Assembly: GCF_002215215.1 (NCBI RefSeq)
Contig: NZ_CP018632.1
Coordinates: forward strand, 7,064,501-7,128,500
Reading direction: 5' to 3'
Length of the DNA: 64,000 nt
From: Granulosicoccus antarcticus IMCC3135
Lineage (GTDB): Bacteria > Pseudomonadota > Gammaproteobacteria > Granulosicoccales > Granulosicoccaceae
In this document: one piece after another, positions 5,626 to 40,943 of the stretch
Layout: the number at the start of each line of letters is the position of its first letter
How positions within the stretch are numbered: the first letter of the stretch is position 1
Made by a program: the position numbers and the translations under genes
Notes under the pieces: model-generated
Told to the model about the DNA's origin: nothing
Database searches by the model: none
The model's input: the letters and a program-made list of their open reading frames with translations, nothing else

Positions 5626-5683
5626 TTGGTACCGGTTAACAGGCAGAAAATTGTACTTTGACCTGACGGTTAACCGGTACCAA
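5626..5683. repeat. Perfect 15-bp inverted repeat
   Basis: Arms TTGGTACCGGTTAAC (5626-5640) and its exact complement (5669-5683) flank a 28-bp spacer. Each arm contains overlapping small palindromes (GGTACC, ACCGGT, GTTAAC). It could fold into a stable stem-loop between the BON gene and the following small ORF, or be a pair of operator half-modules. There is no T-tract on either side, so a classical intrinsic terminator is unlikely. Confidence 0.75.
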
Positions 5684-5900: not shown

Positions 5901-7052
5901 TCAATCAGTACTACCATTGGCTTGCACGATCTCGAAAGCAATCGTAGCCGAGCTGATAAATCCGCCAAAGCCGAACAATTGCACGGTTGCTATATGACGA
6001 CCTATAGGCAGATTACTGGCATCGTATTGCCAGATCATTGGTACAAAGCCTTGTTCCTCTTCAGATTGGAACTCATAGTTGACGTAAAAGCCTGTCTCGT
6101 AGAATGAACTGTCGAGAACCCATCGATCCTCTACAGGCACATTGATTTTGAAGATGGCCTCACCGCTCACTTGCGGTAGACCACTGACAGATGTCGTTTG
6201 CTGCTCAACAAATTCTATTGATACTCGCGGTTCAAAGCTACGCGGTAGAAAAAAGTCTCTTGATAGCCGTTGGCCGTTTCTCTGCAACTGGATAGCTGTC
6301 AGATTCACTTCTGGTTCTGGCAACTTTTTATGCACTCGGTACTGGCGATAGTCACGCTTATTGTTGCCTGTGCTGATGATGGTGAACTGTGGTAATTGAT
6401 AGGCCATCACGACAAACCACCGATCATCACGATCGGCAAAATACTCCACCTGGTCAGCGTCATACCCGTCCCAGCGCACGACAACCTTGCCACTGGCCAC
6501 AGGCTCCCACCGCCTTATTGCACGCATCATAGGTCCCTCATCCACTCCACTGCGCACGAGTACGCGTGATGCGTATGGCACATTGAATGACAGTTCAGTG
6601 CGACCACGAATTGTCCACGCAAGATCAGCAATTATCTCGCCGCCCGAGTAACGAGTGGGATCATCTATCACGACATCTTCATTGGCATAAGTGGCCTCGA
6701 ATACGGGTGTCCACGCCTCATCAGGCACCACCACACCTTGATCGTCCTTACCATCCCAAGTCACCGCATAACGGCCGCTTTGATAAGGTTTTTCATCAAG
6801 CAGCCGTCTGATTACATCACCATCAGCACTTTTAATTACCAGTGACACTTGAGTATCGTTGTCGGTAGCGAAGGCAAAATCGTGCGTTTTCCTCAGTGAT
6901 GGATTGAACTCTTCAACGTCACTCCATAACAATCCGATAGGCTTCATGGAGTTTTCTGGTGCTATCTCCAGGTATCGTATTTCGGCGTGAACGGTGTTTG
7001 CACACATGCACGCAACGACGACAAATACAAACCATCTGATACCTCGACTCAT
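5901..7052 (-). CDS. Secreted protein with FlgD-type Ig-like domains
   Basis: A 383-residue exported protein with a cleavable signal peptide (residues 1-23, ending VHA). It contains at least two segments of the FlgD Ig-like type: SGRYAVTWDGKDDQG (around 92-106) and SGKVVVRWDGYDAD (around 187-200). In FlgD and in many surface proteins this beta-sandwich serves assembly or display. The rest is beta-rich without a family I recognise. It is the last gene of the RHS-containing cluster; its start overlaps the end of the preceding TolB-like gene by 4 bp, which implies translational coupling. The same WDGK/WNG motif recurs in the first gene of the cluster, suggesting the two act in one assembly. Confidence 0.8.
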   Translation of the reverse strand: MSRGIRWFVFVVVACMCANTVHAEIRYLEIAPENSMKPIGLLWSDVEEFNPSLRKTHDFAFATDNDTQVSLVIKSADGDVIRRLLDEKPYQSGRYAVTWDGKDDQGVVVPDEAWTPVFEATYANEDVVIDDPTRYSGGEIIADLAWTIRGRTELSFNVPYASRVLVRSGVDEGPMMRAIRRWEPVASGKVVVRWDGYDADQVEYFADRDDRWFVVMAYQLPQFTIISTGNNKRDYRQYRVHKKLPEPEVNLTAIQLQRNGQRLSRDFFLPRSFEPRVSIEFVEQQTTSVSGLPQVSGEAIFKINVPVEDRWVLDSSFYETGFYVNYEFQSEEEQGFVPMIWQYDASNLPIGRHIATVQLFGFGGFISSATIAFEIVQANGSTD

Positions 7053-7951
7053 GGCTTGATCTCCAGGTTACGGATGTCCATGATCGTATCGGGTAGCGTT
7101 ACTTGCACAGCCTCATCACCTTCCAGGCGCATCAGGGATGTTCCTGAAGGTGTTTTTCTGATGAAAAAAAGTGTTCCGTTCTGATCAGTCACCGGCTCAC
7201 TGTCCCTGAATGAACCGAAGGTCAACTGTTCAACTGGCGCTCCTGGCTGTGGACGCATGCGCCAGATGTGATAGTACCTATCTGGTGCATTAGAAGAAAA
7301 ATACAGCCAATTATCTGCACTGAGATGAGGCTGGTTAGACACATGATTCAACAAGGTCAGTTGAAATTGTTTTGCTGTGTCGTTCTCTCTTTGCCAGATC
7401 TCCCAGATCATGCCCTCACAATCATCAACACAGCTAGCAGTGGAGTAAAACAGATCATTGGTGTCTCGTGTGTAGGGTTCAAACTGAGCCGAGCGTTTAC
7501 GCACTAAATAGTGCTTCCTGCCTGTGTCACCGGACACTGCCACAATATTAGTGGAGCGACTTTTACCATCGGGCATCTCCACCAGATACAGCCATTTTCC
7601 ATCTTGTGAGTAGAATGGCTGGGTATAACGGAGAGTGCTATCCAAAGCTGCACCTGCGGTGTCAAACACGGGCGTTGTTGTTTGCGCGTTGAGATCGTAT
7701 GTATACAACACACTATCAGAGCCGATAAACGCTACCCTCTGAGTGCTAGCACTGTAGCTCATGACCCTTGGGTTCCTAATAGCTTCAACCACGATCAACT
7801 CACCCTGCTTTTCCACCATGACCTGCCACTTGTCGGTGAGAGCGATCAAGGCCAATCCTGCGGGTACTGCCGCAGAGGCTAAGCTGGTGGTGCTAAACAA
7901 CAGCAGCAAGAGAACACTCCACACGCTCACGAACTGTGTAAGCAACTTCAT
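7049..7951 (-). CDS. Periplasmic TolB-like beta-propeller protein
   Basis: A 300-residue exported protein with an N-terminal signal peptide (1-27) followed by repeated PD40/WD40-like blades. Repeated strand patterns such as QPFYSQDGKWLYLVEM, QPHLSADNWLYFSSNAPD and SEPVTDQNGTLFFI are the usual TolB-type blade signatures (DG..LYF). TolB-like propellers serve as protein-protein docking platforms in the periplasm; no enzyme site is seen. It follows the ferric-reductase-like gene by 3 bp and overlaps the next gene by 4 bp, so it is within one operon. Confidence 0.8.
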   Translation of the reverse strand: MKLLTQFVSVWSVLLLLLFSTTSLASAAVPAGLALIALTDKWQVMVEKQGELIVVEAIRNPRVMSYSASTQRVAFIGSDSVLYTYDLNAQTTTPVFDTAGAALDSTLRYTQPFYSQDGKWLYLVEMPDGKSRSTNIVAVSGDTGRKHYLVRKRSAQFEPYTRDTNDLFYSTASCVDDCEGMIWEIWQRENDTAKQFQLTLLNHVSNQPHLSADNWLYFSSNAPDRYYHIWRMRPQPGAPVEQLTFGSFRDSEPVTDQNGTLFFIRKTPSGTSLMRLEGDEAVQVTLPDTIMDIRNLEIKP

Positions 7952-7954
7952 GAT

Positions 7955-8650
7955 TTACTCCTCAGTTTTTCCGGACAGACTTAAGGCATGCATCGCCTGT
8001 CTGCGCCGACTTATAAGAGCATACACAACACCAACAATAAGGAATCCGTAGAACATCATCATAACTACTCCACGGGACTCACTACCGATACTGGCACTGT
8101 GCAAGACGATCAGCGCAATACAAGGGTATACCAAGAAGCGATGTATCCTTGCCCATTTGAAGGAAACTTGACGTGCCAACGAACCCATGACGATAACCAT
8201 CATTATGAGATAGGCAGACACAACCCCTACCGAAACCATTGCATCGTAAAAACCTGAATTGAATCGAGGCAACAGCAGAAACCATGGGGCGTGCTCGGAC
8301 CGCAACTGTACCGCTGTCATGAAACAACCCACATGTCCGACGATAGTTACCGCTATGAGAAGCGCTAGCGTCTGATGCCTATGTATCGGCCAACGGCTGC
8401 GTGCACCACGCACACCGGCAACCCCTATCATCAACATACTCAGTACTTGCAAGGCCACCAGAAAAACCGCATACAGCGCAAACAGCTTGGACAGCAGATA
8501 GAATTGCTGTCCGGCAGGAAGCTGTGCTTCCAGAATCCGTACAGGATGCCCCACAGACTGAACCCATAGAATAAAAGGCAGGAGTAGAACCACCAGAAAC
8601 ACAACGGCAGAAAACACCTTGACACGAACCTCCGATTGCTCCATTCGCAT
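7955..8650 (-). CDS. Ferric-reductase-like (YedZ/MsrQ-type) heme membrane protein
   Basis: Multi-pass membrane protein of about 231 residues. It has six or so hydrophobic helices and conserved histidines at helix ends (HRHQ, VGHVG, RIHRF and VLHSA stretches), the arrangement expected of the ferric reductase-like transmembrane domain that carries two hemes. Such proteins pass electrons across the membrane (as MsrQ does for MsrP) but no MsrP partner is present here, so the acceptor is unknown. The frame is open back to 8839, overlapping the upstream lipoprotein gene by 100 bp; I prefer the internal ATG at 8650, which has GGTAGGGA upstream and gives a short N-terminus before the first helix. Confidence 0.7.
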   Translation of the reverse strand: MRMEQSEVRVKVFSAVVFLVVLLLPFILWVQSVGHPVRILEAQLPAGQQFYLLSKLFALYAVFLVALQVLSMLMIGVAGVRGARSRWPIHRHQTLALLIAVTIVGHVGCFMTAVQLRSEHAPWFLLLPRFNSGFYDAMVSVGVVSAYLIMMVIVMGSLARQVSFKWARIHRFLVYPCIALIVLHSASIGSESRGVVMMMFYGFLIVGVVYALISRRRQAMHALSLSGKTEE

Positions 8651-8739
8651 ACTCGTGTCCCTACCAGCGTTGATTTCCTGCTCAAGACGATAGCATGCAC
8701 TGATGTGCTTCACTAGCCTATTGAAGTCCAACTGCTTCC

Positions 8740-9270
8740 CTACACGCCCATTAAGGTATCCCAGAACGAAATTGTTCTTTCCGTGTACTGTTTTTGCAGT
8801 GTCATACTCACAGATACGGCGTTCTGATTTGGTCCACAACCTTCATTCATCAAGTAATTGAAGGACAGTTCATGGCCAGCATGGTCAAGGCTTAGGTTCT
8901 TCTGACTAATCCTAGCGGTATAGACCCCGTTGGATCTCTTTTTGAACAAGGCTATTGCTGACTCGGGAATTGCAACATCCTCGTCAGTTTGGATATTTTT
9001 CAGTGTCATCGCCTGTAGGACTACTTGGCAGGCTTCATGGATAGCACCACTTTCCGATTCAAACCAGAGCAACAATTCGTACGGAGGACCATTGACGCTG
9101 GTGTCATCGTTCAGATCCCGCATTGTACCTCGCAGCTTTGCATGCGCAACCAACGAGGTCAGTTGTAATTCTGGTTCAGTAAATTCATAATTTTTATGTA
9201 CTTTCATACTACATCCAAAACACGCAGATAATACTACTGCGATAACAATCAGAGATCTGATGTAAGTCAT
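8740..9270 (-). CDS. Small lipoprotein directly downstream of the RHS gene (candidate immunity or accessory protein)
   Basis: A 176-residue predicted lipoprotein: signal peptide and lipobox LSAC (Cys17), with a second Cys at 20. The mature part is polar and mixed alpha/beta with two cysteines further on (EAC near 81 and GCG near 146). I recognise no family. It begins 9 bp after the RHS stop codon. In RHS and other polymorphic toxin loci the immunity gene usually occupies this position, and a periplasmic or outer-membrane lipoprotein would suit a toxin acting outside the cytoplasm; this is inference from position only. It could equally be a structural subunit of the same exported complex. Confidence 0.7.
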   Translation of the reverse strand: MTYIRSLIVIAVVLSACFGCSMKVHKNYEFTEPELQLTSLVAHAKLRGTMRDLNDDTSVNGPPYELLLWFESESGAIHEACQVVLQAMTLKNIQTDEDVAIPESAIALFKKRSNGVYTARISQKNLSLDHAGHELSFNYLMNEGCGPNQNAVSVSMTLQKQYTERTISFWDTLMGV

Positions 9271-9279
9271 GTCGACAGA

Positions 9280-12200
9280 CTATTGAGTCAGATGATTATA
9301 GGTGACGATAAAGCGTTGTGGATTGAACATATCCACAGGAGAGGTGCCAAACACAAAATACGGAAGCACATCAGCAATGCCATGCGGAATACCACCCAGA
9401 AAACGTGGCCCGAAAAAGTTGTAGGTACCTCCGTTAGCAGCGGTGATCACCAGGTTATCATCGCAATCGAATACAGCCTCGCTACGACCATTAGGAGAGA
9501 CGAATTTACGATTACCATCGTTGCCTTCTCCCATCCGATGATAGATAGACTCGTTGCGTGTTAACTGCGTCCAGCCATCCACATCTCCAATATCCGATAC
9601 GTCATCGTTCCAATAGTTTCTTGTCCAGTTCACGATGGCAATACCTCCTACTACTATTCCGCCAATACAAACACCACCGCACGCAAACTCTCCAGTGGAA
9701 TCAAAGTAAAGAAGGGGGTTGGCACTGGCGTAACTATAAGTATTGAGTCCATCCATCAGGCCCATGGGATCAGATTGGATATACCGACCATGCTTCGGTT
9801 CATAATACCGTTGGTTGTTGTAATGAAGATCAGTTTCGGCATCAAAATACTGGCCAGGAAACCTTACATTGAATTGCACTGTATTCTGCGGCGCTGTAGC
9901 AGCGTCCAGGGTCTCGCCATACGGGCCAGCATACGATTGCCAACCCAGCGAACCAGCGGAATCCACCAACGATGTCGGTGTCATCAAGTGATCCCCCACC
10001 ACTTGGTAGTCTTCGGATAATTCAGAGTATTCCAGCGGCATCAATGCTGCGCCGTAGCGATAACGCTTGTCAGGTGCACCAGAAGAAGCACTAGTCTCAC
10101 CAATGAGCATGTCGCCAGCCCATTGGAAGTTGGTAGTGATTGAGCTGGCAATTTTTCGAGTGCGTCTGTTCATACCATCATAGGTGTACCGGGATAGTTC
10201 AGTAGGCACCTCGTTTTGCACCTCAACTACGCTGCTTAAACGGTCTCGCGCGTTGTAATTGTACTGGGTTTCAATACCGGTCAGCTTATTGACCCGAGAG
10301 GTGAGATTACCGGCCGCGTCGTAGCCAAAACTGAACGTATTGTCTTCCAGCAATTTGTTGAATGCATCATACTGTTGATCGGATTCGGTGCGATTGTGTC
10401 GAGAATCGTACTGATAAGCGAAGGATTGGCCTGTGTTTGCAGTTACTAGCCTGCCAATGACGTCGTAGGTAAAACTCATAGGGCCATTCGGTGCACCTTC
10501 AATCTGGATGATTCGATCAAGCGTATCCCATGTGTACTGCAGTAAGTCACCACTGAGCGATGAATGGTCTAAAGCGAGTATTCTTCCCACCGCATCATAG
10601 GATTTGGTGGAGCTCCTGTTCCCGGGTCTGGTGTGAGTTACCTGCCTTCCCACTTTATCGTACGTAAAACCATGCGCACCTGATGGCGTTACCAACTCAC
10701 TAATAAGCCCTCTCGCATCGTAACTGTAACTCACAGTCTCATCCGAATGTGTAGAGGAGAGCACCTCACCCTCATTATTGTAACTGTATGCTACCGTGCT
10801 GCGCCCTTGTCCCTCGGATAGTACCCTGCCTAAAGAGTCATAGGTGTAGTTGATAGTTGGACCCGCACTACTGATGCTCAGTACTCGCCCGAGCACATCA
10901 TAGGTATATCTTCGTCTGTCGGCACCACCAACAGCGCTGTCACCAGATACATCTATACCAGTCATACGCTGACTGCGATCAAACGTGAACTGATAGACCC
11001 GCCCACGGCTATCTGTCATCGACGCCGGTAGATTGCTGGTCTGGTAGGTATAGCTCTTTGTGTATCCGTCGGGGCGTGTTTCGTTCAGCAAACGCCCGAA
11101 GCCGTCGTATTCGTACTCGTGCTCGAAACCAGCAGAATTACGCAGAGATAACACGCGACCCGCAGCATCGTATCTATAAGATGTCGTGTTACCCATCTCA
11201 TCGGAAACACTTGTCTGGCGATCCAGAACATCATAGGAGAATGTTGATGTGTCGCCTGCCGGATTAACCATGATCTCCATATTCCCTCTGTCATCATAGG
11301 TAAACGTGCTGGTTCTTCCCAACGCATCTGTGGTTGATATCAGGTACCCCGGAGCGTCAGTAGCGGCAACCGTTCGATGCCCTTCAGCATCAGTGAAGGA
11401 GCTCAAGTCACCATTCATTGCGTAGCTAAGTGTCGACACATTCCCTGCGGCATCGACAAGCTGTGTTGGATTACCGAACATGTCATAGTTTGTCCGGTGG
11501 ATGCGGCCTGATGGTGTAGTGAGAGTGATTACTCGGTCTGTATCACCCTGATACGTGAAGCTTGTAGTTCCGTCCGGCGAAGTTGTTGATGTCATTCTTC
11601 CTAGTGTGTCGTATGTACCCGTGAACTCAGTACCCAGCATGTCCACGAGTTTCACCATATTGCCATCCTCATCGTATTCACGAAAATACGCTGTACCTCG
11701 ATTCACAGGTGGCATTACTTCTACGACATGACCTTGATCATCGACTTTATAGGCCCAGCGTGCACCGACAGAATCGGTTTTGTAAATGAATCCAGATTGC
11801 TCGGTGTAGGTCAGTATGTCGTCTGCTATTGAATAACTATCTACTACGCTGTGTAAGCCGTACACAACACTAATCATCAGCACATCGGACTCATCATAAA
11901 CGGCGTTTAGTAACGAATACACTTGGGCGCTTGCCTCTCGCACACCGTTCTCATATTCGTACCGTCGCACGCCCCCAGCGGGATCTGTCACTGAAGCTAA
12001 CGTGCCTTCCGCATTATATGCATACTCCCACTCACGCCCACTATGATCCGTGACGGAAGTCACATGACCTGTGGAATTGAATGCAAATTGCAGGAAACGG
12101 CCGTGTTCGTCGGCAATCCGGTTAAGCACACCATTGCTGTATGCGTAAAGAATGCTGTTGCCGTTTTTATCCTGATCCGACGTTATTTGTCCAAGGCTGT

Positions 12201-12771
12201 TGTAGATTTCCGAACTGCCATCAATGCGCGTCAATTGTGTGGTGTTATCAGCATTGGCCGTGAGGGTATAACCGGGCAGCCCTTCAGGGGCTGTGTATAG
12301 TCCAGTGGAGCTTTGGTCGAAATAGTAACGGCGCCCATTTGACAATCGATAGACATACTGTGCAACGACCTCCGCAACTCCATCCACATCTGTGGCCCGA
12401 TACTGCAACACTTTAACCAGCGACTTTTCACACTCAGCCGTCCAACCTTTACCGAAAAAGCCTTCTCGTGCATCAAACGCACGATAGGTGCGTGTTAATG
12501 ACAAATTACGTCTACCAGGGATAGATACGTCAGTATCCCTCCAGATGAACTCCCGATTCTGTAGCATGACTGGCGAGCCTGTCTTTGACTCATCACAAGG
12601 ATCACCGGTCTCATCATCTTTTTCAGGCTGTTCTGGACCAGTGAATGCGTCATGTGTGTTCTGATCATTGGCATTGTCGGCTGCAAAGATACTTCCACTT
12701 ACGATCGGTCCGCACAACAATAAGGTGAACAGTGTGGATCCAACAAGATGCACTATTTTTTCAATGTTCAT
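9280..12771 (-). CDS. RHS/YD-repeat protein with variable C-terminal tail
   Basis: Large 1163-residue exported protein. A signal peptide (1-31) precedes an N-terminal DUF6531-type region (GDPCDESKTGSPVMLQNREF, then RTYRAFD and FGKGWTAEC). YD repeats of the type YxYDxxGRVLS fill residues ~200-900. The RHS-associated core (PGQYFDAETDLHYNNQRYY, GRYIQSDPMGL, NTYSYASANPL, ~970-1028) ends the conserved part. The last ~135 residues (encoded by about 9283-9690) are unrelated: a hydrophobic Gly/Ile segment, then KFVSPNGRSEAVFD, GGTYNFFGP and DVLPYFVFGTSP. RHS proteins form a closed shell around a C-terminal toxin or effector released by cleavage; here the tail resembles an uncharacterised C-terminal module I have seen on other RHS/polymorphic toxins. 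GAGG precedes ATG 12771. It is second in the cluster, 24 bp after the PKD lipoprotein gene. Confidence 0.92.
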   Translation of the reverse strand: MNIEKIVHLVGSTLFTLLLCGPIVSGSIFAADNANDQNTHDAFTGPEQPEKDDETGDPCDESKTGSPVMLQNREFIWRDTDVSIPGRRNLSLTRTYRAFDAREGFFGKGWTAECEKSLVKVLQYRATDVDGVAEVVAQYVYRLSNGRRYYFDQSSTGLYTAPEGLPGYTLTANADNTTQLTRIDGSSEIYNSLGQITSDQDKNGNSILYAYSNGVLNRIADEHGRFLQFAFNSTGHVTSVTDHSGREWEYAYNAEGTLASVTDPAGGVRRYEYENGVREASAQVYSLLNAVYDESDVLMISVVYGLHSVVDSYSIADDILTYTEQSGFIYKTDSVGARWAYKVDDQGHVVEVMPPVNRGTAYFREYDEDGNMVKLVDMLGTEFTGTYDTLGRMTSTTSPDGTTSFTYQGDTDRVITLTTPSGRIHRTNYDMFGNPTQLVDAAGNVSTLSYAMNGDLSSFTDAEGHRTVAATDAPGYLISTTDALGRTSTFTYDDRGNMEIMVNPAGDTSTFSYDVLDRQTSVSDEMGNTTSYRYDAAGRVLSLRNSAGFEHEYEYDGFGRLLNETRPDGYTKSYTYQTSNLPASMTDSRGRVYQFTFDRSQRMTGIDVSGDSAVGGADRRRYTYDVLGRVLSISSAGPTINYTYDSLGRVLSEGQGRSTVAYSYNNEGEVLSSTHSDETVSYSYDARGLISELVTPSGAHGFTYDKVGRQVTHTRPGNRSSTKSYDAVGRILALDHSSLSGDLLQYTWDTLDRIIQIEGAPNGPMSFTYDVIGRLVTANTGQSFAYQYDSRHNRTESDQQYDAFNKLLEDNTFSFGYDAAGNLTSRVNKLTGIETQYNYNARDRLSSVVEVQNEVPTELSRYTYDGMNRRTRKIASSITTNFQWAGDMLIGETSASSGAPDKRYRYGAALMPLEYSELSEDYQVVGDHLMTPTSLVDSAGSLGWQSYAGPYGETLDAATAPQNTVQFNVRFPGQYFDAETDLHYNNQRYYEPKHGRYIQSDPMGLMDGLNTYSYASANPLLYFDSTGEFACGGVCIGGIVVGGIAIVNWTRNYWNDDVSDIGDVDGWTQLTRNESIYHRMGEGNDGNRKFVSPNGRSEAVFDCDDNLVITAANGGTYNFFGPRFLGGIPHGIADVLPYFVFGTSPVDMFNPQRFIVTYNHLTQ

Positions 12772-12795
12772 GTTGTCGCCTCGATGATCTAATCA

Positions 12796-15066
12796 TTAGT
12801 AACGAATTCTCTGCATCACATGCGCCGGTAGCGAGGTGCCGCCGTATGCATCCACTGCGACTAACTGCAAACGATAGCCATCAGGGGCAAGCAGATTGCC
12901 GGCGTTGTCACGCCCATTCCAGCTCACGGAAGTGTCACCTGGGGCAAGGTTCGGAAATGTTTTTCTAAACACCTCCGCGCCACTGTTGGTACTGGCAACA
13001 GTAAGTTCGATACTGGCAGGACGCGACAGATTGAAGCTGATCACACTTGGTACTAGCGCAACCGATCGTGTTGGAAAGTAAATAGGAAAATCGGCCTGCT
13101 GGTCAGAAATAACAGCATGGTGAGTTAGCAGAATTGCATTGTCAGCTACACTTTCAGCGATCACCCCCGGCACGTACGCGTCTCGTGTATCTACCACCGG
13201 CAATAACTTGCCAGTGGTGCCCTCACCATTCCATTCGATATGGTAGTCCCCGTCAGCAAAATACCGTGCACGAAAAAAACTGGAAGAAGTTTCGAGAACA
13301 TCGTTGCCGCGCTGAGTTACATAAGCGGTTACTCGATTGATGCCATAGTTATTCAGCGTAATAGGATAAGAGACAGGCTGATTGTTGAACGGCTCAATAC
13401 CAGCACGTAATACCTGAGTATCTACGCTAATACTTGGATAGTAATTCTTTACTGTTTGCGTATCCCGTAAATCCAACGTTTGCTCGGCACCTGCCACCTC
13501 AAAATTAAGCAAGGCATAGTACAAGCCTGGAGCAACGATCTGACCTGTAGCGTTCTTGCCATCCCATTCCAAAGTGTACTCACCTGTGGAGCGCGAACGC
13601 CTATCTCCCAGCGTTCTGACAGGATCGCCAGATTCATTGACAACCATGATCTCGGATACCGAATCACCACCAAGCGTTAACATCACCGATGCTGTTTCAG
13701 CCGCTAGCGGATCCATAATATTATCACTGATCGAGATACTGTGATTTGCATTCACGATCACCTCGACAAAACGTTTCCCTACTGTTCCATCAGCGGCTGT
13801 AACGAGAAATGTCAGGTAGTAGTTGCCGGGAACTTCATAGGTGTGATCCACAACTACCAATCCACCGGTTGTCGTTACCGGTACGCTGGCATCGAAGGTA
13901 CCATCCCCATCGTAGTCAACATCGCCACTGACAATTCCGGTGCGCCCGGGATCAGTCACCTGAAACCGGATGCTGGCAGCATAGGGCGCATCACCTGATA
14001 GATTGCCTGGTGAGCTTATCAAGGGTATGGGACCACTAGCAGCCTCAACCCGGATCGAAGGAGCGCTGCCAATGGTGGCAAGTCCCAGAGTATCGGTAAT
14101 TCGAACTGACGGAGTAAACGAACCCGCCGTTTCATAAACCATTCGCAACTCACTAACGAACTCCCCTCGCACCAATCTGGGCTCGGATGTTTGATCAAAG
14201 ACCCCATCACCGTTAGTATCCCACTCAATGGATTGGATCTCTTCTGCATCATAGGCCACTAGCTCGAAGGTGACACTAAACGGCACTTCACCAGCTGAAA
14301 ATCGACTTGAGATATACAGATCATTGATTTTTGGCGCTTCATTTTCAACCACAATGATACTGGTGGCTTCAGCCTGATTACCTCCGTCGTCCCAGACACG
14401 TATGCGGGCTGTATAGGTGCCTGGATTATCATAGGTATAATTCAGCGAACGACCTATCGTGTCAAACTCATCGAGCGTAAATCCACCGGTACGAATGCCA
14501 AGGTTGTCGAATCCCTGAGCGCCTACTCCGAGCCCACCATCATTGGGACCACCATCACCCTCAAAATCCCAGAAATAACGACTTATATTTGTGGTGGATG
14601 AAACAACCGGTGTGAACCTGACCGTCAAGGGTGAAAAACCCGAACTTATGTTACTTTGCAACATGACGGCGGCTACCGCGTTGACTGTTACAGTGATTCG
14701 CTGTCCAAAGCTACCTTCACGCCCGGTAACGGTTGCCAACAGCACGTATTCGGTAGTCTCTGTGGGGGTGACCAGAAGTTCACCGGATTCTGCCAGAATT
14801 GTATTGTCAGGTAACAGCTTTACCGAGCTTGCATTCGGCACTGTCCAACTGAGTGAGGTGCTGTCGCCCTCGACAATAGTTAATCGCGTGGCCACAAACT
14901 GAGCGCCATTAATATCGCTGAGTGGCGCAAAGCTTTGATCGTCCGGAGGAGGCTCAGCATTATTGCTGGAACCACCACCACATGATGACAAAGCAATAAC
15001 GGCAAACAATGTAATCCATCGCGCAACAAACGGCAAAGAGTTCAAATGCGCCAAATATTTAAACAT
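12796..15066 (-). CDS. PKD- and FlgD-Ig-domain lipoprotein, first gene of the RHS cluster
   Basis: A 756-residue lipoprotein: signal peptide with lipobox ALSSC (Cys29), a Ser/Asn/Pro linker, an Ig-like region (residues ~50-130), three PKD-type domains (~140-435, with YFWDFEGDGG, IEWDTNGDGVFD and VDYDGDGTFD cores and NPGTYTARI-type ends), then FlgD-type Ig domains (TGEYTLEWDGKN, DGDYHIEWNGEG and DTSVSWNGRDNAGNLLAPDGY). The Asp-rich DGD loops suggest calcium binding. Such multi-domain arrangements act as surface scaffolds. It precedes the RHS gene by 24 bp. Because the last gene of the cluster carries the same FlgD-type domains, a shared exported assembly is plausible. No strong ribosome-binding site is visible; the ATG is fixed by the signal peptide. 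Confidence 0.85.
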   Translation of the reverse strand: MFKYLAHLNSLPFVARWITLFAVIALSSCGGGSSNNAEPPPDDQSFAPLSDINGAQFVATRLTIVEGDSTSLSWTVPNASSVKLLPDNTILAESGELLVTPTETTEYVLLATVTGREGSFGQRITVTVNAVAAVMLQSNISSGFSPLTVRFTPVVSSTTNISRYFWDFEGDGGPNDGGLGVGAQGFDNLGIRTGGFTLDEFDTIGRSLNYTYDNPGTYTARIRVWDDGGNQAEATSIIVVENEAPKINDLYISSRFSAGEVPFSVTFELVAYDAEEIQSIEWDTNGDGVFDQTSEPRLVRGEFVSELRMVYETAGSFTPSVRITDTLGLATIGSAPSIRVEAASGPIPLISSPGNLSGDAPYAASIRFQVTDPGRTGIVSGDVDYDGDGTFDASVPVTTTGGLVVVDHTYEVPGNYYLTFLVTAADGTVGKRFVEVIVNANHSISISDNIMDPLAAETASVMLTLGGDSVSEIMVVNESGDPVRTLGDRRSRSTGEYTLEWDGKNATGQIVAPGLYYALLNFEVAGAEQTLDLRDTQTVKNYYPSISVDTQVLRAGIEPFNNQPVSYPITLNNYGINRVTAYVTQRGNDVLETSSSFFRARYFADGDYHIEWNGEGTTGKLLPVVDTRDAYVPGVIAESVADNAILLTHHAVISDQQADFPIYFPTRSVALVPSVISFNLSRPASIELTVASTNSGAEVFRKTFPNLAPGDTSVSWNGRDNAGNLLAPDGYRLQLVAVDAYGGTSLPAHVMQRIRY

Positions 15067-15194
15067 TACGGTACCTGCGCGGTGCGAGTTAATTACAATC
15101 TTACATAATTAACATATTTGGTAAAGCCTTTAGAAAACATCCAGGGCTCTTACCAGAGAATAGCGATCGTCACGAGGGCGTGATGTTTTCTGGC

Positions 15195-15231
15195 CAATTG
15201 AAGTGAATAGTTGTTCTATTCACATCAATTG
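15195..15231. promoter_or_regulatory. Imperfect 16-bp inverted repeat upstream of the RHS cluster
   Basis: CAATTGAAGTGAATAG (15195-15210) and CTATTCACATCAATTG (15216-15231) pair at 15 of 16 positions around a TTGTT spacer. It lies about 130 bp upstream of the first gene of the minus-strand RHS cluster and about 80 bp downstream of the ChrB/rhodanese gene. It could be an operator for the cluster or an RNA hairpin ending the upstream transcript. There is no T-tract, which favours the operator reading. The remainder of the 246-bp gap (15067-15312) holds nothing I recognise. Confidence 0.55.
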
Positions 15232-15312
15232 AGGGTCAAAGTTGGCAAAATTATCGCGTCTGCAGTAGATCAGTTTATTCTTGGATAGGCTCATAGCAGC
15301 GTTACGGCGACG

Positions 15313-16293
15313 CTACTGGACACTCGACTTCTTTACTGCAATACGCAGTAGTTGCTCCATGGCTTCGTATTCCGTCATCGCCATAGCACCTGCAACCGGC
15401 AGCCCAGCGGTGTGCCAGCCTTTGATCCCATATGGCTTCATTATGACGGCATCGACACCGAGAATACGAAGTTTTCTGGCCGCCTCATACCCTCGGAAAT
15501 CTTTCACGCAATACGCAATGACACGATCAGCGCGGCTGAACAATTGTGCACTATCACTATCAAGAGAGCGAAGTGTCATGTTGATTGCTCCGGGGATATG
15601 ACCCTCCCGGTATTCACGTCGTTCTCGCGTATCCAGAAAAACAATTTCTTCCCTCCTGGCAATCGCCTGGAGCACTTCGCTAAGGTCCATTTCAGGAACT
15701 TTCGCACTATCCTCCATGGACTTTTTTTCCCTGCTCACAACGGTACTGCATCCCTTACGTGGCTGTAGTGTTTGTATGCCAGTGTCAATCGATAACGTCT
15801 GTGCGGCCAAGCCACTGGCCACGCGATTAAAGAATTCAAAATAACACGATTGCGTTACCTTATTTCTACCTATATCCAGCTGCATCTGACGAAACGCAGT
15901 CTCGACAAGCTGGCTGTACACCTCCTGATTCGGGTTCCACGCATTTATTTCGATGTCATGAATGATATCGCCTAGCTTTACGGCTATTTGATCAGAGATG
16001 TTATAGCTCTGCATCAACGCTGAATAAGTGGTGGCGGTTCCGGTTCGATTATACGACGCTCCCGGCATGTCAAACGTTGTAACACCAGATACCGCTGTGG
16101 GGTTTTCGACCAGACTCACTGGCAGTGGATTGATAAAGGTACGAATTAGCCACACCGACGCCCATTTATCAGGACCTTGGCCATCGGTTGTCTGGAATGT
16201 AGATCGCGCCCAGCCAAAGTTTATCGGCACAGTGAACAACAACAGCACCAGCACAAGAAAACGTAAAATCAACCTTCGAGTAATAACTTGCAT
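15313..16293 (-). CDS. Exported ChrB-like / rhodanese fusion protein
   Basis: A 326-residue protein with an N-terminal hydrophobic export or anchor segment (residues 7-28). Residues ~40-145 resemble the ChrB C-terminal domain (chromate-resistance exported protein): DKWASVWLIRTFINP, FDMPGA, then ALMQSYNISD and IIHDIEIN. Residues ~202-300 form a rhodanese domain with FLDTRERREYREGHIPGAI and the active-site loop around Cys262 (AYCVKDFRGYEAA). Rhodaneses transfer sulfane sulfur or bind thiols; the ChrB-like domain function is poorly known. Two further Cys (150, 182) could form a disulfide. The frame extends upstream to a TTG at 16374, but ATG 16293 puts the hydrophobic segment near the N-terminus and is preferred. 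The gene stands alone. Confidence 0.75.
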   Translation of the reverse strand: MQVITRRLILRFLVLVLLLFTVPINFGWARSTFQTTDGQGPDKWASVWLIRTFINPLPVSLVENPTAVSGVTTFDMPGASYNRTGTATTYSALMQSYNISDQIAVKLGDIIHDIEINAWNPNQEVYSQLVETAFRQMQLDIGRNKVTQSCYFEFFNRVASGLAAQTLSIDTGIQTLQPRKGCSTVVSREKKSMEDSAKVPEMDLSEVLQAIARREEIVFLDTRERREYREGHIPGAINMTLRSLDSDSAQLFSRADRVIAYCVKDFRGYEAARKLRILGVDAVIMKPYGIKGWHTAGLPVAGAMAMTEYEAMEQLLRIAVKKSSVQ

Positions 16294-16824: not shown

Positions 16825-16880
16825 TTGACGTCCTCCCCTCCCTGAAGAAAAAGGGGATTCCTACGGCGTTCAAGCACATG
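16825..16880 (-). ncRNA. Predicted 3' part of the TnpB guide RNA (omega RNA) scaffold and right-end hairpin
   Basis: Just after the tnpB stop, the minus strand reads GGAATCCCC, a loop with CTTCAGGG, then AGGGGAGGACGTCAA. This CCCCT/AGGGG hairpin followed by a TCAA end is the standard right-end pattern of IS605-family TnpB elements, where the guide RNA scaffold ends. The ~20 nt downstream on the minus strand (CTATTGAGCGCAGTAAATGA, from 16824) would then be the guide. The 5' limit of the RNA, inside tnpB, cannot be read from sequence alone. Confidence 0.5.
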
Positions 16881-18153
16881 CCTGAATCGCTTCGACGGAA
16901 GGCCGCCCCGTGGGTTCCTGCTTCACTGGGGCTGCCTTAACTGCATGTTCGTGCAATTCAGGTCTAACGTCCCCTCCACCGGAATGCCGGACCAAGGCCA
17001 TCACGGCGTGTCCCGCCGCTACGATATTCTTTGCCGCATTAACATCGGCGTTCTCTGCATGCCCACAAGAGACACAGCAGAAGCTCTCTTGAATTTTGCG
17101 GTTCTCTTGCGCTATATGGCCACAGCCTGAGCATTGCTGACTGGTGTACTGAGCCGGCACCACGATCAAATCACCACCCGCCCACTTGAGTTTGTAGCCC
17201 AACTGTCGACGGAATTCACCCCAACCTTGATCGAGAATTGCTCGATTGAGACCCGATTTGGCCTTGACGTTTTTTCCTGGAGCTTGTCGGGTGCCGGAAG
17301 CCGAACGAGACATATTGCTGACCTTCAGGCCTTCGATACACACCACCGCGTGATTTTGTGCGGGGCCGCCCAGGCAAATGAGGTGTGATTTCTGATGTAG
17401 GTAGTCGGCTCGGACATTGGTGATTCGAATATACAGGCGGGCAATTTTTGCTTTCTGTTTTTTCCAATTACGGGAATACTTGCACCGACGAGCCAGCGAT
17501 CGCTGTGCGTGTGCCAATTGTCGTTGAAGTTGTGCAAAACTGTTCTTTGGCAAATGAATGACGCCGTCGCTTTGTGCGGCAAAAATAGCAATGCCCAAGT
17601 CGAGACCAATCGCTGTTGTGGATGGGTGTAGAGGAGTATCAACCTGTTGCGCAGTTTGAATTGAAAAGAACCATTTACCGCCTCGCTCACTGACGGTGAT
17701 ATTGCGTAGCGTGCCGATGACATTACGGCTGTTTCGGTAGCGCATCCAGCCTAACTTAGGTAGAAAAATACGATTATTGGTCTGATCAAGCTTGAACTGT
17801 TTGGGCTCGGGGAAGCGAAAGCTATTCCCACGGCCTTTCTTTTTGTACGAGGGGAAAGCAGCGCGTTTGGAAAAAAAGTTCTGATAGGCCCGATCAAGAT
17901 CTTTCAGCGATTGCTGCAACGTTTGAGCGGGTGCGAGTTGAAGCCACAGTGTGTCTCGATCTTTACGCCAGGTTGTCAGGCTCTTGCACATCTGGACATA
18001 GCTGATGTACTTCAGTTCGGCCTTATGGTTCTCTTGCTGAAGTGCCAATGCCTTGTTGTAGACAAACCGGGAACAGCCTGCAAACTGCCACAGCTGGCGG
18101 GTTTGTTCACCATTGGGGCGTAGCTCGAACTTGAAGGCTTGTAGACGTTCCAT
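16870..18153 (-). CDS. tnpB: TnpB RNA-guided nuclease
   Basis: A 427-residue TnpB, the IS605-associated RNA-guided DNA endonuclease related to Cas12. It cuts the empty donor site so that the element is kept. All active-site landmarks are present: RuvC I GLDLG (Asp185), RuvC II CIEGL (Glu274), zinc finger CSGCGH...CVSCGH (Cys341, 344, 360, 363) and RuvC III NADVNAAKNI (Asp370). The N-terminal helix-turn-helix start (AFKFELRPN) is typical, and the length is usual. ATG 18153 is chosen over an upstream in-frame start at 18192 because family members begin at this point. The C-terminal ~40 residues overlap the region expected to encode the guide RNA scaffold. It appears intact. Confidence 0.93.
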   Translation of the reverse strand: MERLQAFKFELRPNGEQTRQLWQFAGCSRFVYNKALALQQENHKAELKYISYVQMCKSLTTWRKDRDTLWLQLAPAQTLQQSLKDLDRAYQNFFSKRAAFPSYKKKGRGNSFRFPEPKQFKLDQTNNRIFLPKLGWMRYRNSRNVIGTLRNITVSERGGKWFFSIQTAQQVDTPLHPSTTAIGLDLGIAIFAAQSDGVIHLPKNSFAQLQRQLAHAQRSLARRCKYSRNWKKQKAKIARLYIRITNVRADYLHQKSHLICLGGPAQNHAVVCIEGLKVSNMSRSASGTRQAPGKNVKAKSGLNRAILDQGWGEFRRQLGYKLKWAGGDLIVVPAQYTSQQCSGCGHIAQENRKIQESFCCVSCGHAENADVNAAKNIVAAGHAVMALVRHSGGGDVRPELHEHAVKAAPVKQEPTGRPSVEAIQACA

Positions 18154-18277
18154 GGACTGAATAATACACTGGACCGATAGAGAGTATGCCACAAATACCC
18201 ATTAAACACTGTATTTATAAACAGCTGTTAGAGGGTGTATTATTACTATCGAATCAGGAAAATCTTCGAGCTAGACG

Positions 18278-18384: not shown

Positions 18385-19755
18385 TCATGAGAGACGAGGT
18401 ACACCGAGGCTATCGTAGTACTTTACCGATAGAATAAGGTGCAATCCCGAAAGGCTGTTGTGCCAACAACGTTTGCTAGAGCAAGCGATGAGCTTAGCCA
18501 ACTCCTGCGAGGCACCGAGACGACGTAAAGCGTCATACGCCGTACGGCCGCGTCGCCAGTGCTTGAGCTGGATAGCCCGCAATCGGCGTCGTATCCAGCC
18601 ATCCAGATCACGGAAGATTTTCGGCGTTTGTGCCAGATGAAAGTAAGCCTTCCATCCGGGAATGAAACTCCGAAGTTCTACCGCAACTTGGACAAGGCTG
18701 CGACCACCGACGCGACGTGTGATCTGCCGGATGCGCTGCTTGAACTTGACGATTGCCGAGGGCGATACCGCGATCTTGACCGTGTTCCCACTCCACCGCC
18801 GTAAGCAGTAGCCCAGAAATTTACGACCAAACACGGGCCCGACTGCAGTCTTTGCCTCGTTCACCCGAAGGTGCAGTTTTGCATACAGCTTCCGAAGAGA
18901 GCGCAGTACCCGTTCCCCCGCCCGTTGACTACGAACATACACATTGCAGTCATCGGCGTATCGGGCAAACTTGTGTCCGCGCCTCTCCAGAGCCTGATCC
19001 ACTTCGTCCAACAGCACATTAGCCAGTAACGGTGAAAGAGGGGAGCCTTGTACGGTTCCCTCCAAGCGTTCCACCAATACGCCGTTGATCATGACGCCAG
19101 CTCGAAGAAATCGTCGAATCAACCGAAGAACGGCCTTATCGTCGATTCGCTTACTCAGCCGGTCCATGAGAACGTCGTGATTGACCCTGTCGAAAAATTT
19201 CTCAAGATCCAAATCAACCACCACCTGATAGCCTTGTTGCACACACTGCTGTGCATGGAGCACAGCGTCATGAGCACTTCGACCCGGGCGAAAGCCGTAG
19301 CTGAATTCCGAAAACGTCGGGTCAAGCAGGGGTTGCAGTACTTGCAACAGTGCCTGCTGGATCAGGCGATCAATGACGGTGGGTATCCCCAATTCCCTGG
19401 AGCCTCCACCCGGTTTCGGAATTTCCACGCGTCGCACGGCCGATGGCCGATAACTACCGCGCAGCAATTCATCCCGGATCACTGGCCACTGGGTTTGAAG
19501 ATATTCAATCGTTTGAGTGATTGAAAGACCGTCTACGCCCGCACTACCTTTATTGGCTTTGACGCGTTTCCACGCCTCCACCATGTTCTCTCGCGAGAGC
19601 GCCTGCTCAAGCAGATTCTCCCGCCCCAAGCTTTCGGTTCGTTGAGGCACCGACACCGCTTCACCGCGTGCAGGAAACTTTCGGGCTTCACCCGTTCGTC
19701 TCTCACTGCGCCTCGATCTCCCGAGTTTCTGGTGCTTTGCTTTGTCGAGCGTCAT
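18385..19755 (-). CDS. ltrA: Group II intron reverse transcriptase/maturase
   Basis: A 456-residue intron-encoded protein. Reverse transcriptase motifs are in order: AGVDGLSI (72-79), EIPKPGGGSRELGIPTVIDR (111-130), FSYGFRPGRSAHDA, VVDLDLEKFFDRVNHD (180-194), QGSPLSPLLAN (236-246) and the catalytic YADD (266-269). A maturase/X domain follows with FRDLDGWIRRRLR and the LKHWRRGRT stretch. No HNH endonuclease domain follows, so retrohoming would rely on nicked or single-stranded DNA, as in class C introns. The frame is uninterrupted and catalytic residues are intact, so the intron may still be mobile. It is the only protein in the intron, starting at ATG 19755. Confidence 0.95.
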   Translation of the reverse strand: MTLDKAKHQKLGRSRRSERRTGEARKFPARGEAVSVPQRTESLGRENLLEQALSRENMVEAWKRVKANKGSAGVDGLSITQTIEYLQTQWPVIRDELLRGSYRPSAVRRVEIPKPGGGSRELGIPTVIDRLIQQALLQVLQPLLDPTFSEFSYGFRPGRSAHDAVLHAQQCVQQGYQVVVDLDLEKFFDRVNHDVLMDRLSKRIDDKAVLRLIRRFLRAGVMINGVLVERLEGTVQGSPLSPLLANVLLDEVDQALERRGHKFARYADDCNVYVRSQRAGERVLRSLRKLYAKLHLRVNEAKTAVGPVFGRKFLGYCLRRWSGNTVKIAVSPSAIVKFKQRIRQITRRVGGRSLVQVAVELRSFIPGWKAYFHLAQTPKIFRDLDGWIRRRLRAIQLKHWRRGRTAYDALRRLGASQELAKLIACSSKRCWHNSLSGLHLILSVKYYDSLGVPRLS

Positions 19756-20137
19756 CGTCTTCTAGCTCTCCTTCTCGTTTAGCCCTTCATCGCATGATGA
19801 CGACTACTATGGCCTCTGCTGACTTCTCACTCCGACCAGACGATCGTCGCCCTTTCAGGCACAAGGTGAGATCTCCCCGGGTAAGACTGCAATCCTTCCC
19901 CACACAACCGCCGAATCTACATTATCTCCCTTTGACCACAAGAGCTTCGCGATGATAGGCCCGCTCGCCCTGGTTGATAACGCCTCAATATTCGGTTCTT
20001 GTTCATCGGCTCGTGGTTTCGCTAGACACTTCCTCCCCACGCTTGGTCGCCCTTGCGCAGTTGTGCTTCACTTCGGTCGCTATGGTCAGCTTCCGGGAGG
20101 ACTTTCACCTCCAAGATTGCACCCATGCCGGGCGCAC

Positions 20138-37165: not shown

Positions 37166-40100
37166 TCAAAATATTACGGAATAACAATAAAGGGACACAG
37201 ACAATGTCCGCATGCCGCCATTGCTATCAATGCTCAGCGTGCCTACTAGTTCTTCTTGAATATCTCCACACTGCGCGGTTACCTCAACACTTTGACTTCC
37301 ATCGGCGGCAACATCACCACTGACAGGTGTGGCCGTCAACCAGAAACTGCTACTGCTCACACTAAAGTTCAACACGGCATTACCGTCGTTACGGAAGCTG
37401 ATAGAAGCGGAATCAATAGCTTCGCTTTCGCCTACAAAATCCCCCTGATTTCCATGATAGGCACTCAGTTCCAATGGGCCAGAATCAATCTCACTCTCTG
37501 GGTATGGATCGATCTCACTCAGGATGGCCTCTGGCCCTTGAGTACAGGCAATAGACACAGGCACTGTTTGTGTGCCGCCATTACTATCAACGAACAACGC
37601 ACCCGTCCGTGTCTCTTCATCCTGCCCGCACTGTCCGGTCACCTCAATATTCTGAAATCCATCCACGGCAACATTGCCACTGACAGGCTTGACCGATAAC
37701 CATGACTGGTCACTGGTGACGCTATAGCTCAACACGGCATTGCCACCGTTACTGAAGCTGAATGAACTCGTCGCACTCGTCGGACTTACATTTACAAAAG
37801 CGCTCAGATTCAACGCCTCCGGATCAACCCCTCTCAGTATCGCCTCCGGCTCTGGACTACAGACAATCGATACAGACACTGTCCGTGTACCGCCATTTCC
37901 ACCAATAGTCAGTGTGCCCTTTCGTGTGTCTTCACCCTCACTGCACTGCGCAGCGACTTCAAGGCTTTCATTCCCATTCACCGCAACCGAACCACTGGCA
38001 GGTTCTGCCGTTAACCAGGCCTGGTCACTGGTGACGCTGTAGTTCAACACCGCATTACCGTCGTTACTGAAGCTGACGGAGGAGACATCACTCTGATTCA
38101 CATCAGCACTCAGAACCAATGAAGCCGGATCAATCTCACTCAATATTGCCACTGGTTCTTGGCTACAGACTATGGATACAGCCACCGTCTGCGTGCCGCC
38201 ATTCCCTCCTATGGTCAGTGTGCCCGTTCGCGTGTCTTCAATCTCTCCGCACTGAGCGGTGATCTGCACGCTTTCGTTCCCATTCACCGCAACCGAACCA
38301 CTGGCAGGTTCTGTCGTTATCCAGGGTTGGTTGCTAGTGACGCTGTAGTTCAACACCGCATTACCGTCGTTACTGAAACTGACGGAGGAAGCATCACTCT
38401 GGTTCACATCGGCACTCAGGCTCAATGAGCTCGGATCAATCTCACTCAGTATCGGCACTGCTTCCTGACTACAGACAATGGACACAGACACCGTCCGTGT
38501 GCCGCCATCACCACCAATGCTCAGTGTGCCCGTTCGCGTGTCTTCAATCTCTCCGCACTGAGCGGTGATCTGTACGCTTTCGTTCCCATTCACTGCAACA
38601 GAACCACTGGAAGGTGTCGCCGCAATCCAGGACTGATCACTGGTGACGCTGTAGTTCAACAAAGCATTGCCAACATTACTAAAGCTCACGGAGGAAGAAT
38701 CACTTTGATTTACATCGGCATTCAGACTTAATGAATTCGGACTGATGGCACCCAGAATGGCCACTACAGGTGCGTTTTGCGTGACGGTAAATGAACTGGA
38801 AACCGACTCTGTGATTCCATCAGTTGCCGAAACAGTTAATGAGTAAACACCAGCATTGGCCAATCGCCCCGTAATCAAGCCCGTAACCGGATTGATCTGC
38901 AGCGCCGATTCTGGACTACTCGTCAGAGTGAAGCGCAATGCAGCCCCCTCAGGATCGGAAAAACTCTCTGAGACATTGACAGAGATCAGCACTCCGCTCT
39001 CTACAGGTCCAACATCCTCAATTGAGCCAGCAATGGGCCTTTGATTCTCTCGAACTTCCAGGTCCAGTATCCCTGTGACTAATGATTCCAGATCTCGCGC
39101 TTCCACCTCTACACTGTAAGTTCCTTCGTCACCGGGCCGGGCTGCACCTGAGAGAATACCCAACTCGGTCACTATGACACCGCCTGATGGGGGCAGAGTA
39201 CCTGCAGCAGTGTTGAATGATAGCTCACTACCTTCCGGATCTTCAAAAAACCGGGAGAGATCAAATGCCAGGCCCATACCGACAACAACAGACTGAGCGG
39301 GGATTGAAGAAATCAGAACAGGAGGTTGATCATCACTGACTATATTTAGTGTCACAGTAGCATTACTGACAAAACTGCCATCAGTAACCGAATACACAAA
39401 ACTATCACTGACACCGTCGCTTCCAACACCCTCGGGGCCGGCATTATATAGATAGGTGAAACCGCCATCGGATCTTAGATCGAAACTTGCAGCCCGCGCC
39501 GGAGCTCTTTCTGGCGAGGTGCTTATCGATAAAGTTTGATTGCTTTCATCCACATCGTCGGTATCGTTGCTCAACAGATCCACACCTCCCCCAGCCGTTA
39601 TCGTCAGCGGGATACCCGCAATGGCCGTAAAACTGTCGTCGACAGCCACCGGAGCTTCATTGATTGCAATCAGGCATAAATTGAATAGTCTGGCTGCTGT
39701 CTCTTGAGCGTTGTTGGTCGCTACCAGCTGATAGGACAAACTTACAGCTGCCTTGAGTGGCGGGACAGCCACCAAAAATTCGATATCGCTATCGACTTGA
39801 GTGTCCTGGATTACTTCATCAATCGTCACGCTGCAGTCTTCGGATGTCGTGCAAGCCTCATCCAGGGAAGTCTTTGCGCCGTCAATATTGAATCCTGCCA
39901 GCAAGCTGCACTCGCTACTATTTTCATCAGTGTGTGGCCGCAACTCCCAGCTAGTCTCAACGATAGGCAATCCTCCCAACTCCGCCAGAGAGACAAGGAG
40001 CGGGTACTCACCATCCTCTTCGTAGCGGACCAATGTCAGGTCATCGACTAAAGGCTCTTGAGTGTCCCCAGTAAATACGAAGGGATCGGTGCCGTTGTTA

Positions 40101-40576: not shown

Positions 40577-40943
40577 TTTGCAGCCTCCGAAGTAAGAGTA
40601 AAGCACTAACTCAGTGCAGAGCGAAAATAATTCCTGGCACAACCTGGAAACGGAGACCAGCTATGAATACAGATTGGGAAGCGACAGGCAAGCAAGACAT
40701 ACCAAACTATTCTTCATGCGCATTACCCAGCATCAGCTTTCCTGAAATAGTGCTCCATATTGAAGAATAATAATTGGTTTGAATATTATACTTATGGGTA
40801 CGATTGGGCATTTTTCGGCTTAATTCAGTTGCTATATCTTCGACTTCTGTTAGCTTAACCACGAGTACAAAATCACTTGAACTCATTATTATGAAGAACC
40901 AGAATCAGTTCATCTGACGACCGAATCACTATCAGGAATACTT
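40577..40943. other. Intergenic gap between divergent envelope genes
   Basis: About 370 bp between the BACON-repeat lipoprotein (minus) and the autotransporter-type gene (plus). No ORF, tRNA or strong hairpin was seen; it should hold two divergent promoters. Confidence 0.4.

Follow-up and report, generated by a model that had tools for sequence, protein, structure and literature searches.

To our knowledge, how RHS toxins exported by the Sec pathway mature and reach the surface of Gram-negative bacteria is poorly understood. Sec-exported RHS polymorphic toxins have been described that combine a signal, RHS repeats, a variable C-terminal tip and an adjacent small gene (Zhang et al. 2012, PMC3482391), and bacterial teneurin-like proteins share a YD shell, a polymorphic end, a downstream immunity gene and Sec signals (PMC13018210). 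Here we analyse a locus resembling both in a 64,000-nucleotide stretch of the Granulosicoccus antarcticus IMCC3135 genome (NZ_CP018632.1, positions 7,064,501–7,128,500; hereafter the window), where genes U and A–F surround and include an RHS gene (B) and almost certainly form one conserved system. The locus is set apart by fixed partners of B: a putatively exported rhodanese protein (U), a predicted heme-type membrane protein (D), a propeller protein (E) and two proteins with FlgD_ig domains (A and F). FlgD, rhodanese, ferric, PKD and TolB are not mentioned in the available part of PMC3482391, nor FlgD, rhodanese or heme in that of PMC13018210.

Two of these partners recall other systems. A diheme membrane protein that stands alone next to a periplasmic partner is also the arrangement of MsrQ–MsrP and of the MsrQ-like (PF01794) extracytosolic electron-transfer clusters treated in the available text of PMC8238504; unlike in those clusters, the partner here is a rhodanese/ChrB_C protein, and the flavinylation motif is absent from the F and A proteins checked. 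U shares its ChrB_C domain with the chromate regulator ChrB, the C terminus of which is reported to resemble rhodanese, and differs from ChrB, as the accessible part of PMC3817168 presents it, in having an N-terminal export signal (judged by eye) and, apart from ChrB_C, a complete rhodanese domain. Within known RHS polymorphic toxins, the partner set appears to be new; it was not found described in the literature searched, outside which most subscription papers lie.

Seven genes around an RHS protein

A first-pass annotation of the window had proposed six genes on one strand with gaps from −4 to about 90 bp. Six minus-strand open reading frames (ORFs) are confirmed, separated by 24 bp (A–B), 9 bp (B–C), 89 bp (C–D), 3 bp (D–E) and −4 bp (E–F); a seventh gene that belongs to the set, U (15313–16293, minus strand), had been missed 246 bp upstream of A. 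U encodes ChrB_C and rhodanese domains (Pfam, 59.1 and 50.5 bits) with the loop CVKDFR. A (12796–15066) is a lipoprotein with PKD and two FlgD_ig stretches (57.6 bits), and F (5901–7052), the anchor of the conserved set, carries one FlgD_ig domain (35.2 bits), so the FlgD domains attributed to the first and last genes are both present. B (9280–12771) has 17 RHS-repeat stretches, Rhs_assc_core and a DPxGL motif and is the only RHS core in the genome; its variable C-terminal tip, a candidate toxin, spans residues 1028–1163 (9283–9690). C (8740–9270) is a small lipoprotein and candidate immunity protein, D (7955–8650, from a chosen ATG upstream of which the frame stays open) a NOX/ferric-reductase-like, predicted diheme membrane protein, and E (7049–7951) a TolB-like propeller with a single PD40 stretch barely above cut-off (22.8 versus 20.9). 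Export signals, judged by eye from sequence, are visible on A, B, C, E and F, as had been claimed for all but the heme protein, and on U; lipoprotein signs, also by eye, are LSSC with Cys29 in A and LSAC in C.

The GC fraction of 5901–16293 is 0.487, compared with 0.523 elsewhere, but 4 of 108 windows of equal length, with overlapping windows counted, are as low.

The gene set recurs as a unit

A census was anchored on the F family, with searches covering 143, 369 and 244 genomes (398 for U) and a plasmid collection; G and L numbers are our handles for genomes and loci. Sixteen F loci were counted: that of the window, five in the same genus (G001, G004, G008, G011 and G015), eight in further genomes (G095, G127, G618, G640, G723, G208, G259 and G937) and two on plasmids of Photobacterium sp. 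GJ3 and Candidatus Thiodictyon syntrophicum. Dropped before this count were G013 (a 24-residue match), G068, and the FlgD-only matches and loci; L017 and G008, which are the same 43,432-base contig, were counted once. E lies next to F in 15 of the 16 loci, G723 being the exception. A U-type gene occurs in 13; those without it are G001 and G618, whose contigs end there, and G723. D is present in ten, that of G259 on a separate contig ending in the next gene, and an RHS gene is seen in ten, the contig stopping first in G001, G015, G618 and G640.

Linkage also holds in the other direction. All D matches, found in 6 of 143 genomes, fall within F-type loci, as do all matches to a strict-threshold U profile (3/398 and 4/16). 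A was matched in 15 of the 143 genomes, comprising five full-length proteins (all in such loci), a truncated one in G008 and nine PKD or FlgD fragments; the full-length homologues of the window's A are those of G004, G011, G015 and G095. The same genomes hold 19 RHS places outside the set, and at none of the 15 examined (the other four are all in G259) did U, D, E, F or A neighbour the RHS gene within the flanks examined, some of which were short; RHS genes on short contigs of G001 might belong to its broken locus. On an RHS tree of 22 rows, the cluster label changes 3 times; shuffled labels give 7.1, and one shuffle in 500 was as low. We do not lean on this tree, which omitted fragments L089 and L090, in which the cluster rows are not one clade and for which several non-cluster segments without the DPxGL anchor were cut at a fixed place.

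The set recurs, more than by chance, in other families of the class, with a patchy distribution: of 27 genomes from the same genus as the window, 6 have full-length F. The linkage shows that U and A–F, joined in other families by a small gene before B (T), belong to one conserved gene set, and they almost certainly make up one system. The earlier claim of a single system around the RHS protein is upheld by the linkage of E to F and the confinement of D to these loci, and a check for independently scattered homologues did not refute it.

Gene order varies across the loci. The window reads U-A-B-C-D-E-F, and G015 has U-A on one contig and E-F on another. In G004 and G011 the order is A-B-I-U-D-E-F, where I is a small gene after B, and in G008 it is truncated A-U-D-E-F. 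G095, G208 and Photobacterium share U-D-E-F-A-T-B-I, the Photobacterium A being split over two frames. G127 has U-D-big-E-F-T-B-I, where 'big' stands for a long protein in which FlgD_ig is combined with TIG or beta-helix domains (G127 and G937); G259 is alike but split over contigs, and in G937 U-D diverges from big-E-F-T-B-I. T carries tetratricopeptide repeats in G127 and G937; in the window there is no space for such a gene. U adjoins D in nine of the ten loci in which both are seen, the exception being the window. In locus L104 (6636–16616), A's place is occupied by a 3,326-residue protein of beta-helix/NosD-like/FlgD_ig type, which matches CHU_C (type IX signal) at 34 bits.

A variable tip and its downstream gene

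Across the eight loci first compared for B and its downstream gene, the RHS cores align in all 28 pairs. Tips are related in one pair, window–G004 (z = 43.7; next 3.0), and the downstream genes are related in that same pair (z = 15.7; next 2.3), which is a single positive case among the 28. With G259 and G937 added for B alone, cores are related in 45 of 45 pairs and tips clearly in one (z = 44.5; next 3.8).

Tips also recur in other organisms. That of the window is 30% identical over 115 residues to a protein from a Psychrobacter plasmid (267–381 of 425), whose gene is separated by IS3 genes from that of a nearby ShlB/FhaC-type transporter. The final 72 residues of the G011 tip share 65% identity with the end of a 1,582-residue haemagglutinin-repeat ORF on a Fusobacterium vincentii plasmid. 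Two tips recur in carriers of the two-partner-secretion or contact-dependent inhibition (CDI) kind, although for the Psychrobacter protein we infer the CDI nature, because Pfam gives it no name. Orphan tips follow B in Photobacterium and in G259, where several orphan RHS ends are found (L091, 8808–19815, and L092). The first 67 residues of the G937 tip region match a G259 orphan at 75%, and no match to the G937 downstream gene was found there. On the Thiodictyon plasmid (L071, 4029–12193), several small genes follow the RHS gene in a row, among them an ankyrin gene and one that carries the annotation MafI-family immunity, with ISKra4 and IS66 transposases.

The downstream genes encode lipoproteins (window and G004), proteins with several membrane-helix-like segments (G095, G127 and G208) or proteins with no such segments (G011, Photobacterium, Thiodictyon and G937), as expected if the tips act in different places. 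C has no match in the plasmid collection, passes no family cut-off in the domain scan and is related only to the downstream gene of G004, whose tip likewise matches. Because tip and downstream gene match in the same pair, and because two tips recur in other carriers, lipoprotein C is probably an immunity protein, and on these sequence comparisons it is very likely that B and C form a toxin–immunity pair.

A candidate redox pair

Two histidine pairs, H-x13-H and H-x12/13-H, are present in all ten D sequences. The D model (mean predicted local distance difference test score 86) best matches SpNOX (Z = 15.4, 3.5 Å over 181 residues), and the first 24 rows of the structure search are all NOX, DUOX, STEAP or b561 proteins (Z = 15.4–10.2), on a scale on which helical models reach about 13 by chance arrangement. 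The Ferric_reduct (PF01794) cut-off is passed by one of eight scanned D proteins (G011, 30.3 versus 28); G208, G259 and Photobacterium score below it (27.8, 26.1 and 18.5), and the window, G004, G095 and G937 have no such match. Searched by sequence against the PDB, D gave no match, and membership of MsrQ is not supported: one of nine D proteins matched the NCBIfam MsrQ equivalog, weakly (E = 8e-4). The histidine pairs and modelled fold support placing D in a heme-type NOX/ferric-reductase fold class.

In U, the loop C[VIL]KDFR (C-x4-R) is kept in 11 of 13 U-type proteins; the other two are ChrB_C proteins with no rhodanese domain. The Photobacterium U is rhodanese alone. At the Thiodictyon locus, a binding protein, a permease, an ATPase and a ChrB_C protein without rhodanese replace D and U; in G640 their place is taken by an ATPase recognised by Pfam, a frame that looks permease-like by eye and has no Pfam match, and a ChrB_C protein. 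In these loci, then, D and the rhodanese come and go together, and their absence from two loci with ATP-binding cassette (ABC) transporter genes means that D is not obligatory. The heme-type membrane reductase of the first-pass annotation thus stands as a fold class and not as an indispensable part.

By analogy with MsrQ–MsrP, D might pass electrons to U, a relay that we regard as possible but somewhat short of probable. Flavinylation of A or F, hinted at by weak DUF2271 matches and by PMC8238504, was considered and set aside: the motif [ST]GA[ST] occurs in 0 of 15 F and 0 of 8 A proteins, and in two long 'big' proteins, where chance is the likely cause.

Candidate scaffold and propeller proteins

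The E family includes a divergent group in G127 (19% identity), G259, G937, G618 and Thiodictyon. A profile built without these five finds all of them at E = 2e-14 or better (a five-sequence test), and each contains PD40 repeats. The C-x3-C motif of the window's E (7415–7432; Cys173–Cys177, zero-based) comprises its only cysteines and is kept in 10 of 15 E proteins; because G640 has it, the motif does not follow D and rhodanese, and redox coupling through it was rejected. A fold search with F returned many Ig/FnIII arrays at TM of about 0.2 and no functional clue. We consider it fairly likely that A, E and F are display or maturation proteins, and plausible that they build, anchor or display the RHS shell.

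Features in and around the locus

Between U and A lies a near-perfect 37-bp palindrome (15195–15231), a possible operator, which is the single site in the genome with up to three mismatches (reversed control, 0). Downstream of F, an inverted repeat (5626–5683) with 21-nt arms that are 90% complementary is possibly a terminator; promoter- and terminator-like sites showed no excess over shuffles. An IS605-type OrfB/TnpB-like transposase gene (16870–18192) adjoins U, followed by a group II intron (18385–20056) with a reverse transcriptase/maturase ORF (18385–19755) and Rfam group II matches at 19782–19856 and 19886–20056. Farther away, 37166–40642 encodes a large protein with five BACON_2-type stretches, beside a 490-residue ORF on the other strand (40944–42416). 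PADLOC returned no match for the seven proteins (U and A–F), and a known anti-phage defence was rejected as an explanation.

A proposed role and its alternatives

We favour, as the reasonably likely reading of these sequences, a Sec-exported RHS polymorphic toxin with an immunity gene and a dedicated envelope module, a statement that leaves the electron relay aside. B would, on strong grounds, enter the periplasm by Sec, fold its YD shell and carry an exchangeable toxin tip, from which, on similar grounds, lipoprotein C would protect the producer. A and F, with their Ig-like arrays, and the propeller E would chaperone, anchor or display the shell. More tentatively, and on the model of MsrQ–MsrP, D might use two hemes to carry electrons over the inner membrane to a periplasmic U, which might keep part of the exported machinery in working order. 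The first-pass annotation had rightly centred the system on the RHS protein; because it overlooked the gene for the rhodanese/ChrB_C protein, as well as the toxin tip and its immunity gene, it did not see this likely purpose.

Several results weigh against the proposal. In G008, U-D-E-F persists beside a truncated A although no RHS core is present anywhere in the genome, G723 has F alone, with an RHS gene elsewhere in its genome, and G618 (81% complete) has no RHS core match. Leaving aside the RHS core itself, the tips match no toxin family above cut-off in Pfam or NCBIfam, and a known toxin family for them was accordingly rejected; an immunity match for the Fusobacterium tip was not found either, the gene after it not being similar to the G011 downstream gene (E = 0.15). 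For D, Foldseek gave nothing with E < 0.001 (best 0.08), the window's protein passes no family cut-off in the domain scan, and Thiodictyon and G640 lack both D and the rhodanese.

The adhesin-like Ig and propeller domains of A, E and F, and tips without a known toxin family, would suit a surface adhesin or structural shell, with C as an accessory lipoprotein and the variable end determining which ligand is bound. We find this improbable: in the one pair that can be tested, the tip and the gene after it change in step; carriers of the two-partner-secretion type in other organisms share two of the tips; and orphan tips follow two loci. U and D could instead be a separate metal- or oxidant-stress pair hitch-hiking beside RHS genes, since ChrB_C is known from chromate resistance (in the part of PMC3817168 available), the D/rhodanese pair can be absent, it forms a divergent unit in G937 and it stays in G008 without an RHS gene. 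Against this, every D match in the 143 genomes and every U-profile match lies within these loci, and the pair persists though gene order is reshuffled; we regard hitch-hiking as unlikely, if less so than the adhesin.

No outer-membrane channel through which B could leave the cell was seen in the set. Delivery by a type VI secretion system was rejected for the window, whose genome has no match to VipA (found in 4 of 13 genomes searched) and whose B has an N-terminal signal by eye; SpvB, of Tc toxin B/C proteins, is not among B's Pfam matches up to E = 1. The signal peptide on B, the missing VipA and the specificity of the partners to this RHS subset would also fit a new type of genuine outer-membrane secretion machine, made up of A, E, F and T and serving RHS toxins. 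The set members scanned gave no match to a barrel, POTRA or secretin, however, and general machinery could serve, which leaves such a machine a rather poor candidate, between the adhesin and the stress pair in our estimation.

Returning to the Sec-exported toxin with its envelope module, a fuller version would be an undescribed gammaproteobacterial pathway of RHS-toxin export and maturation, in which FlgD_ig/Ig-like scaffolds and the propeller take the shell to the surface, a NOX-like diheme protein feeding a periplasmic rhodanese arms or repairs the toxin, and an ABC transporter substitutes in some lineages. We offer this version tentatively and think it doubtful as a whole, though less so than any of the three alternatives above. 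The gene set supplies definite candidate partners for one subset of RHS proteins, a surprising redox pair among them. Because D and the rhodanese have been lost naturally at loci with ABC-transporter genes, comparing such loci with the others offers a way to learn what their step contributes.

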